Shown here in pieces: positions 52,684-55,075 of a stretch of DNA of 64,000 bases. Every line of letters begins with the position of its first letter. Positions within the stretch are counted from its first letter, which is position 1. The notes under the pieces were generated by a model. It worked only from the letters and a program-made list of their open reading frames with translations. It did no database searches and was not told the DNA's origin. Source of the stretch: Halobiforma lacisalsi AJ5 (GTDB lineage: Archaea; Halobacteriota; Halobacteria; Halobacteriales; Natrialbaceae); assembly GCF_000226975.2 (NCBI RefSeq), contig NZ_CP019285.1, positions 2,046,001 through 2,110,000 on the forward strand, given 5' to 3'. A program made the position numbers and the translations under genes.

Positions 52684-53922
52684 ATGGGCATCGATTACTC
52701 GAAATTGCGGGACCCGAACGCGGAGTACACGATGCGGGATCTGTCGGCGGAGACGATGAACGTGACCCGCGAGCGCGGGGACGGTCGAGACGTCGAGATC
52801 ACGGACGTCCAGACGACGATGGTCGACGGTAACTTCCCGTGGACGCTGGTTCGGGTCTATACGGACGCAGGCATCGTCGGCACGGGCGAGGCCTACTGGG
52901 GCGCGGGCGCGCCGGAACTCATCGAACGGATGGCGCCGTTCCTCCGCGGCGAGAACCCGCTGGATATCGACCGCCTCACGGAACACCTCGTCCAGAAGAT
53001 GTCCGGCGAGGGGTCGATCGGCGGCGTCACCGTCACCGCGATTTCGGGCATCGAGGTCGCACTGCACGATCTGGCGGGCAAAATCCTCGAGGTGCCGGCC
53101 TACCAGTTGCTCGGCGGGAAGTACCGCGACGAGGTCCGGGTCTACTGTGACTGCCACACCGAGGAAGAGGCCGATCCGATCGCGTGTGCCGACGAGGCCG
53201 AACGCGTCGTCACCGAACTCGGCTACGACGCCCTGAAGTTCGACCTCGACGTCCCTTCCGGCCACGAGAAGGACCGCGCGAACCGCCACCTCCGCGCACC
53301 CGAGATCGAACACAAGGCCTCGATCGTCGAGGCCGTGACCGAACGCGTCGGCTCCCGGGCCGACGTCGCCTTCGACTGTCACTGGTCGTTCTCCGCGGAG
53401 AGCGCGAAACGACTCACGAAGCGCCTCGAGGAATACAATGTCTGGTGGCTCGAGGACCCGGTGCCGCCGGAGAACCACGACGTCCAGCGGGAGATCACCA
53501 AGGGAACGGCGACGCCCGTCGCCGTCGGGGAGAACGTCTATCGGACCCACGGGCAGCGACAACTGTTGGAGGGGCAGGCGGTCGACATCATCGCGCCGGA
53601 CATGCCGAAGGTCGGCGGGATGCGCGAGACGGCCAAGATCGCGGACCTGGCGGATCTGTACTACGTTCCGGTCGCGATGCACAACGTCGCCTCGCCGGTC
53701 GCGACGATGGGGAGCGTCCACGTCGGTGCGGCGATCTCGAACGCGCTGGCGATCGAGTTCCACTCGTACGAACTCGAGTGGTGGGACGACCTCGTCGAGG
53801 AGGACGTCATCGAAGATGGCTACATCGAGGTTCCCGAGGAGCCCGGCCTCGGTGTGACCCTCGACCTGGACGCGGTCGAGGAGCACATGGTCGAGGGAGA
53901 GGAGTTGTTCGACGAAGCGTAG
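52684..53922 (+). CDS. gnaD: Gluconate/xylonate-type dehydratase (enolase superfamily)
   Basis: A 412-residue mandelate-racemase / muconate-lactonising-type enzyme. The length and opening (GIDYSKLRDPNAEYTMRDL) match what I recall of the haloarchaeal gluconate dehydratase, first step of the semi-phosphorylative Entner-Doudoroff route. Metal and acid-base features are DCHWSF (about residues 230-235), WWLEDPVPP (about 254-262), VGENVYRTHGQ (about 280-290) and the catalytic MHNVASP (about 331-337). The close relative xylonate dehydratase cannot be excluded. It sits beside a sugar ABC transporter and amylolytic genes. Its stop codon is part of the first hairpin of an array. Confidence 0.85.
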   Translation: MGIDYSKLRDPNAEYTMRDLSAETMNVTRERGDGRDVEITDVQTTMVDGNFPWTLVRVYTDAGIVGTGEAYWGAGAPELIERMAPFLRGENPLDIDRLTEHLVQKMSGEGSIGGVTVTAISGIEVALHDLAGKILEVPAYQLLGGKYRDEVRVYCDCHTEEEADPIACADEAERVVTELGYDALKFDLDVPSGHEKDRANRHLRAPEIEHKASIVEAVTERVGSRADVAFDCHWSFSAESAKRLTKRLEEYNVWWLEDPVPPENHDVQREITKGTATPVAVGENVYRTHGQRQLLEGQAVDIIAPDMPKVGGMRETAKIADLADLYYVPVAMHNVASPVATMGSVHVGAAISNALAIEFHSYELEWWDDLVEEDVIEDGYIEVPEEPGLGVTLDLDAVEEHMVEGEELFDEA

Positions 53923-54109
53923 CTTCGTTGAGCCAGCAAATCGCGGATTTGTGCTGTTTGACGAGGCATAGGCCTCGTCAAGTACGTTGAGCTCTGCTCA
54001 ACGGTGTTCGATGAAGCGTAGCTTCATCGGGCTCGTGAATCTTCGATTCACGGTGTTCGACGAAGCGCCTCGAGACTCGAGACTCGAGACGACCGGCCTC
54101 TGCCGGTCG
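53908..54109. repeat. Array of about seven short hairpins between convergent genes
   Basis: In order, the stems are: acgaagc/gcttcgt around the TAG stop (53912-53928), caaatc/gatttg (53937-53951), tgacgaggc/gcctcgtca (53959-53980), cgttgagc/gctcaacg (53985-54003), cgatgaagc/gcttcatcg (54009-54029), cgtgaatc/gattcacg (54034-54052), and cgaccggc/gccggtcg (54090-54109). Loops are three or four bases. The string gttcgaYgaagcg recurs at 53907, 54006 and 54055. Three ctcgag sites spaced by 7 bases lie at 54069-54088. The array fills the gap between the dehydratase stop and the ABC permease stop. Confidence 0.85.
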
Positions 54110-54157
54110 ACACTCGAGGAGAATAGGGGGAAGCGGGGAATGAAGAAGGCCGTCCCG

Positions 54158-55075
54158 TTAGCCTTCCATGCCGCCGAACGAGAGGCCGCTCTCGACGTAG
54201 TTCTGTGCCGCGAAGTAGATGATCGCGACGGGCAGCGCGAACAGGATCGCGAACGCCGCGAACTCGGTCCACGGCGTCTCGTAGTCGTCGACCAGCGCGT
54301 ACAGTTCGACCGAGAGCGTGTAGTTCTCCGGCTGCAGGAGCGTCTGGGCGATGATGAACTCGTTCCAGCCGGCAAGGAACGTGAAGATGAGCACGACGGC
54401 GATCCCCGGCTTCGCGAGCGGCAGGATCACCTCGCGGATGACCTGCCACTGGCTCGCTCCGTCGACGATTGCCGCCTCCTCGTAGGAGACGGGAATGTTG
54501 TCCATGAACGTCTTCAGCAGCCAGGTGTTGAACGGGATCGCTCCTGCGGCGTAGAACAGCCCGAGCACGAGCAAGTTGTTACTCAGCCCGAGGTTGACGA
54601 ACAGGGCGTACAGCGCGACGAGCGTCGCGATCGACAGCCCCGCACCGACCTGAGTGAAGAGGACGTAGCCGTAGAGGACTTTCTCACGGCCCGCGAACTT
54701 CCGCCTCGAGAGCGCGTACGCGCCGGGGATGATGACCGACAGCGAGACGCTGACGGTGACGAAGACGACGATCAGGCTGTTAAACAGCGCGCCGGGCTTG
54801 CCGACTTCGCCGTCCTCGAAGACGAAGTTCGACTCGAACAGCACCCAGCGGTAGGCGTCGAGGTTGTACGTCGAGGGGTCCGCGAACAGCCCCTCGGAAC
54901 TCATCAGGCCCGCGCCCTGCGAGAACGAGGCCGTGATGATCCAGTACACCGGGAACATCAACAGCAGTACCAGCACGGTGGCGCCGGTGCTTCCCGCGAT
55001 CGTCTTGCCGACGTCACCGAGGGTTCGTCGGCCGGTCTGTACCTGTTCGATGGTCTTTCGTACCGTATCGATCAT
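54158..55075 (-). CDS. Sugar ABC transporter permease, MalG-like
   Basis: A 305-residue inner-membrane permease with six main hydrophobic segments. The cytoplasmic EAA loop that docks to the ATPase reads EEAAIVDGASQWQVIREVILPLAKPG (about residues 199-224). VYWIITASFSQG near the first helix and FTFLAGWNEFIIAQ are typical of CUT1 carbohydrate importers. Its ATG overlaps the stop of the MalF-like permease. It ends 48 bases from the hairpin array. The ATPase partner is encoded on the other strand at 57535. Confidence 0.93.
   Translation of the reverse strand: MIDTVRKTIEQVQTGRRTLGDVGKTIAGSTGATVLVLLLMFPVYWIITASFSQGAGLMSSEGLFADPSTYNLDAYRWVLFESNFVFEDGEVGKPGALFNSLIVVFVTVSVSLSVIIPGAYALSRRKFAGREKVLYGYVLFTQVGAGLSIATLVALYALFVNLGLSNNLLVLGLFYAAGAIPFNTWLLKTFMDNIPVSYEEAAIVDGASQWQVIREVILPLAKPGIAVVLIFTFLAGWNEFIIAQTLLQPENYTLSVELYALVDDYETPWTEFAAFAILFALPVAIIYFAAQNYVESGLSFGGMEG

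Follow-up and report, generated by a model that had tools for sequence, protein, structure and literature searches.

The window, by which we mean the whole 64,000-nucleotide stretch of Halobiforma lacisalsi AJ5 DNA that was analysed, carries a gene for a dehydratase of the enolase superfamily facing a gene for a sugar ABC transporter permease, and in the spacer between them lies a cluster of short palindromes (Table 1). The best NCBIfam matches of the dehydratase were gluconate/galactonate dehydratases, below the equivalog cut-off. Between 53912 and 54109 there are seven perfect hairpins with loops of 3-4 nt and arms of at least 6 nt, whereas Markov shuffles of the stretch gave 0.29 on average and 3 at most (n=500). 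The folding z score of the array stretch was -6.5 for the plus strand and -6.3 for the minus strand, both far below the shuffles. The first-pass annotation had described these seven hairpins as one array, and all seven were found again, but the seventh (54090-54109) belongs to a separate actcgag repeat. This hairpin is itself flanked by inverted ctcgag.

Table 1. Coordinates of the array and its neighbouring genes, numbered from the first base of the window
Feature	Positions	Strand	Evidence or remark
Dehydratase, enolase (mandelate racemase) superfamily, 412 aa, C-terminus ELFDEA-TAG	52684..53922	+	ORF; Pfam MR_MLE_N/MR_MLE_C
Unit 1, 49 nt: hairpin A1 (core stem 53909-53931, stop codon in loop/apex) and hairpin B1 (53934-53955, imperfect)	53907..53955	+	CM R1, E 9.6e-15
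Unit 2, 50 nt: hairpin A2 GTTTGACGAGGC-atag-GCCTCGTCAAGT and hairpin B2 CGTTGAGC-tct-GCTCAACG (53985-54003)	53956..54005	+	E 2.3e-14
Unit 3, 49 nt: hairpin A3 GTTCGATGAAGC-gta-GCTTCATCGGGC and hairpin B3 CGTGAATC-ttc-GATTCACG (54034-54052)	54006..54054	+	E 1.8e-17
Terminal half unit GTTCGACGAAGC, left arm only	54055..54066	+	Arrays of relatives commonly finish in such a half unit
Another repeat, outside the A+B family: gactcgag three times, with an unrelated hairpin (54090-54109)	54069..54119	.	
Sugar ABC transporter permease (MalG/GlcU-like), convergent to the dehydratase	54158..55075	-	

The array proper consists of three tandem A+B units (53907-54054) followed by the terminal half unit, which is probably a remnant of the ancestral gene end. 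In each unit a hairpin A (GTTYGACGARGC-loop-GCYTCGTCRRGC) is followed by a hairpin B with a variable stem and a free triloop, so that the two kinds of hairpin alternate with a period of 49-50 nt. In hairpin A the last 12 bases of the gene (GTTYGACGARGC) recur in inverted form, closed around the position of the stop codon; in unit 1 the dehydratase gene itself supplies the left arm, with its final 12 sense bases, and the loop, with its stop codon. The three copies of gttcgaYgaagcg that had been taken earlier for duplications of the gene end are present at 53907, 54006 and 54055, the first of them being the 3' end of the dehydratase gene (stop TAG at 53920-53922), and a fourth, diverged copy, gtttgacgaggc, was found at 53956. 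The C-G to T-A change compensated on both sides of the stem (acgaagc/gcttcgt at 53912-53928 against atgaagc/gcttcat) is also present, and the unit at 53956 has a second one that had been missed, A-T to G-C (gacgaggc/gcctcgtc). The array shares with CRISPR arrays its regular short repeats and, as the first-pass annotation held, it is not one of them: the units are palindromic and contiguous, without spacers. With the Rfam covariance models nothing scored above the gathering score, the sole weak match being CRISPR-DR31, far below cut-off and outside the array, and CRISPR and the Rfam families were rejected as its identity.

When this genome was searched by BLAST and with covariance models, the sole strong copy beyond the array itself was in the tail of a paralogous dehydratase gene 13.7 kb away, so a dispersed repeat was rejected; in 464 kb sampled from the genome there was no other cluster of at least three such hairpins (null 0). 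The pattern of unit A was found in 58 of 392 genomes of the order, with no control matches, and in 29 of 30 loci inspected from these genomes the unit lies exactly at the dehydratase stop codon. The other inspected locus (L154, G113:C65) has an A+B module at the stop of a putative HTH regulator gene ending in MVFDET. Among 84,980 bacterial and archaeal genomes 25 stretches matched, all of them in Halobacteria; 24 lie at a dehydratase end and the 25th stretch ends before its gene becomes visible. The best matches of the covariance model were likewise all at the dehydratase gene. Thus, in Halobacteria the unit sits almost only at the dehydratase 3' end. The pattern of unit A includes the dehydratase's own end and is therefore blind to arrays with other arms, for which reason a pattern of the constant parts only (TCGAGCTCG...GTGTTCGA) was also run. 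Its hairpin-bearing matches were at the dehydratase and at the gene for the DMSO-reductase type II iron-sulphur subunit (TIGR03478), with an additional one at a GH10 gene in one genome, and most of the remaining matches were chance matches in coding sequence. A generic scan for signatures of the form X - rcX - X was drowned by coding periodicity.

The searches also brought up hairpin families of other kinds. In genome G031 (L275:9110-9404, L287:10098-10339 and L271:5713-5811) and in L240 of G018 there is a different family of arrays, each with 4-10 triloop hairpins and with spacers that are conserved (tgactga, gaggtc, ttgatga and aaccac), at several sites in one genome, and the loop of one homologous hairpin is ttc in the one copy and gaa in a second. 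In L232-L237 (G046 and G044) dispersed hairpin pairs, GTTCGTGAATC-nnn-GATTCACGAGC and GCAAATC-nnn-GATTTGC, reach up to 33 model matches in a 1.9 Mb genome without the dehydratase.

At the DMSO-reductase iron-sulphur subunit gene the architecture is the same with different arms, which are copied from that gene's own end, e.g., GTTCGAAGATGAC...GTCATCTTCGAGC. Tracking of the gene end by the arms is clear by eye in several of these loci, and over all 30 it is only suggestive (p 0.08). Here the module lies inside an operon, where it separates two genes that overlap in relatives without an array, and it rebuilds the stop of the one gene and the start of the next. At one such gene (L359, G195:C1) the gene-end unit occurs at least five times in direct tandem after the iron-sulphur subunit.

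Relatives were also examined for covariation, a check proposed in the first-pass annotation, and the result was strong. In 34 units 95.1% of the cells were paired, double changes occurred in 12 of 20 pairs, and double-change cells numbered 107 compared to 28 after shuffling, a count that none of 500 shuffles reached, although the 107 leans toward structure because these units were picked for good pairing. In all 137 dehydratase ends, the gene's own flank paired better with it than flanks swapped in from orthologs with different ends (p 8e-12), and the same was found with 42 unusual dehydratase C-termini (p 2e-5). Where the C-terminus has changed from FDEA to FDPA, FDSA, FDAA, FDES, FDET or FAEA, the non-coding arm is altered to match. 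Such strong pairing and covariation, together with the folding z of the array and its site close to the stop codon, are what would be expected of a selected RNA element, that is, of hairpins in the 3' region of the dehydratase mRNA that end transcription or shield the end of the mRNA, with selection on the RNA maintaining their pairing. The GTAA/GTGA and GTA loops with C-G closure and a spacer (53923-54157) that has no T4 or A4 run, and thus no T-run terminator, also agree with this, as do the reports that one tested hairpin of Haloferax volcanii stopped 59% of transcripts (PMC7237163) and that hairpin clusters are proposed as bacterial terminators (PMC8355165). The array resembles both of these in having several hairpins just past a stop codon; it differs from them in having no U-tract, in its indifference to the direction of the downstream gene and in occurring also within an operon, and the T-run that follows the hairpin of an intrinsic terminator is absent.

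What weighs against selection on the RNA is, in the first place, the nature of the mismatches. If the plus-strand RNA were selected, a large excess of G-U over A-C mismatches would be expected, and there was none in either stem: 26 against 21 in stem A outside positions 2-3 and 19 against 15 in stem B. The first-pass annotation had argued that the compensatory change suggests selection for pairing. This does not follow, because template switching in DNA gives the same pattern and the wobbles observed here are without a bias for the RNA strand. Its further proposal, that the array could serve the convergent genes as a two-way terminator or as an insulator, is not supported, since arrays are found behind the dehydratase irrespective of the direction of the next gene: with an array the downstream gene was on the same strand in 23 cases and convergent in 18, and without an array in 22 and 13 (p 0.64). 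The lack of a T4 or A4 run in the spacer also speaks against it. In addition, the module is found between operon genes that otherwise overlap, where a terminator would do harm, the array is missing from about a third or more of the dehydratase orthologs, and turnover is too rapid for arrays to cluster on the tree. Hence, a selected RNA element appears unlikely as the explanation; the array may have a role in RNA 3' ends, and any such effect would be secondary.

The turnover is seen in a tree of 85 dehydratases, on which array presence needs 26 changes compared to 28.7 with shuffled labels, i.e., there is no clustering. Within the genus the coding regions of orthologs are 94% identical and those of paralogs 90%, whereas the arrays and the last 150 coding bases show the opposite and are closer to the paralog in the same genome than to the ortholog. 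Paralogous arrays therefore evolve in concert. Close relatives differ in the order of their units, in a manner that fits units having rotated into the place at the gene end. In the untranslated downstream units TAG, TAA or TGA is kept at the stop position in 30 of 41, while the B loops have changed freely. In a few downstream units loop A is the reverse complement of the usual one, TTAC against GTAA and TCAC against GTGA.

Patchy presence and quick turnover would also be given by a very small MITE- or REP-like mobile element, non-autonomous and with the terminal inverted repeats GCTTCGTCGRGC...GTTCGACGAAGC, that is put in at GTTYGACGA by a recombinase or Y1 transposase and survives only where the gene end is rebuilt. 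The constants of the module (TCGAGCTCG - B - GTGTTCGA) are common to two unrelated genes, an insert in one locus (L231) is flanked by 16-nt direct repeats, and Y1_Tnp genes are present in 43 of 61 genomes, including this one, in a search that does not separate RAYT from IS200 TnpA. Yet the arms copy the codons of the host gene, which an inserted element could not carry, there are no dispersed copies within a genome, and several array-bearing genomes (G014, G027, G040, G052 and G060) are without Y1_Tnp. Viral contigs searched with the unit pattern gave no match, which also led us to reject an origin from viruses. We consider such an element quite improbable, and the 'mobile repeat' of the first-pass annotation was right only in part, since the array is anchored to gene ends and not dispersed. 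The nearest known kind is the REP/BIME class, with which it shares short palindromes in alternating pairs and tandem arrays at gene ends, and REPs can give a TAG stop to neighbouring genes (PMC2817692, PMC3733652). The array is no REP/BIME: the high dispersed copy number of that class, more than 100 copies for REPs, was looked for and one or two anchored genes per genome were found instead, its arms copy the host gene, it is confined to Halobacteria and, in the genomes searched for Y1_Tnp, it showed no consistent link to a Y1 transposase. An array of this type is not described in the literature searched, which lay mostly outside subscription journals.

The explanation toward which we lean, by a modest degree, is that template switching and recombination in DNA have spread this gene-end palindromic array and keep it perfect. 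The observations behind it are the copies of the gene end, arms that track the codons of two unrelated host genes, rapid gain and loss, the concert of paralogs and the retained stop. A tandem palindromic array would grow from the gene's own 3' end, each unit repeating the final ~12 bases of the host gene first in inverted and then in direct orientation, on either side of hairpin B. We infer that hairpin-mediated template switching during DNA synthesis creates the units and keeps them perfect, equalising the arms and at times inverting a loop, and that recombination between units would add, delete and rotate them. An array at gene ends that begin with GTTYGA would now and then overwrite the last codons, and because every unit opens with a usable reading-frame end and a stop, such events would leave the enzyme nearly intact and the array would therefore be tolerated at these ends. 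The absence of a wobble bias, the independence of orientation and the position inside an operon fit template switching in DNA and recombination between units. Template switching has been reported to homogenise the arms of inverted repeats and to invert spacers (PMC8604942), and switching of this kind is also described in PMC3820800. The array resembles the products of quasipalindrome template-switch mutation (PMC7202029, PMC3820800, PMC8604942) in its identical inverted-repeat arms and inverted spacers; such mutations are known as single events, whereas here the result is a tandem array that recurs throughout a class and includes a second hairpin that is not from the gene. Of the hallmarks of template switching, arms homogenised with both sides changing together are found here, and spacer inversion is seen in the few inverted A loops only, the B loops remaining strand-biased.

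Some features do not sit easily with a purely mutational origin. The class-wide linkage to essentially two genes is odd considering that there are about 170 TTYGACGA sites within 464 kb of this genome. The B loops are strand-biased, with 100 pyrimidine-rich compared to 31 (p 1e-9), which rules out free loop inversion as the sole process; the closing pairs are nearly always C-G; and at position 2 of stem A the pair is mostly T-G, which is a wobble on the plus strand only. The loop bias and the closing pairs hint at selection or at a recognising protein. Template switching also leaves the origin of hairpin B unaccounted for. A self-propagating module of Halobacteria that homes to GTTYGA gene ends, rewrites its arms for each host gene and supplies the last codons and stop, and that would form a class unlike REPs, MITEs and CRISPRs, is conceivable, though we regard it as doubtful.

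On the reading by template switching and recombination, the array is probably near-neutral or selfish DNA. It would be a natural case in which covariation, the usual proof of RNA structure, may come from DNA copying instead, and in which the last codons of a metabolic enzyme have seemingly been overwritten repeatedly by a repeat. The class offers many states of the array at a single homologous gene end, so that a comparison of strains can set selection for pairing directly against the formation of palindromes by mutation.
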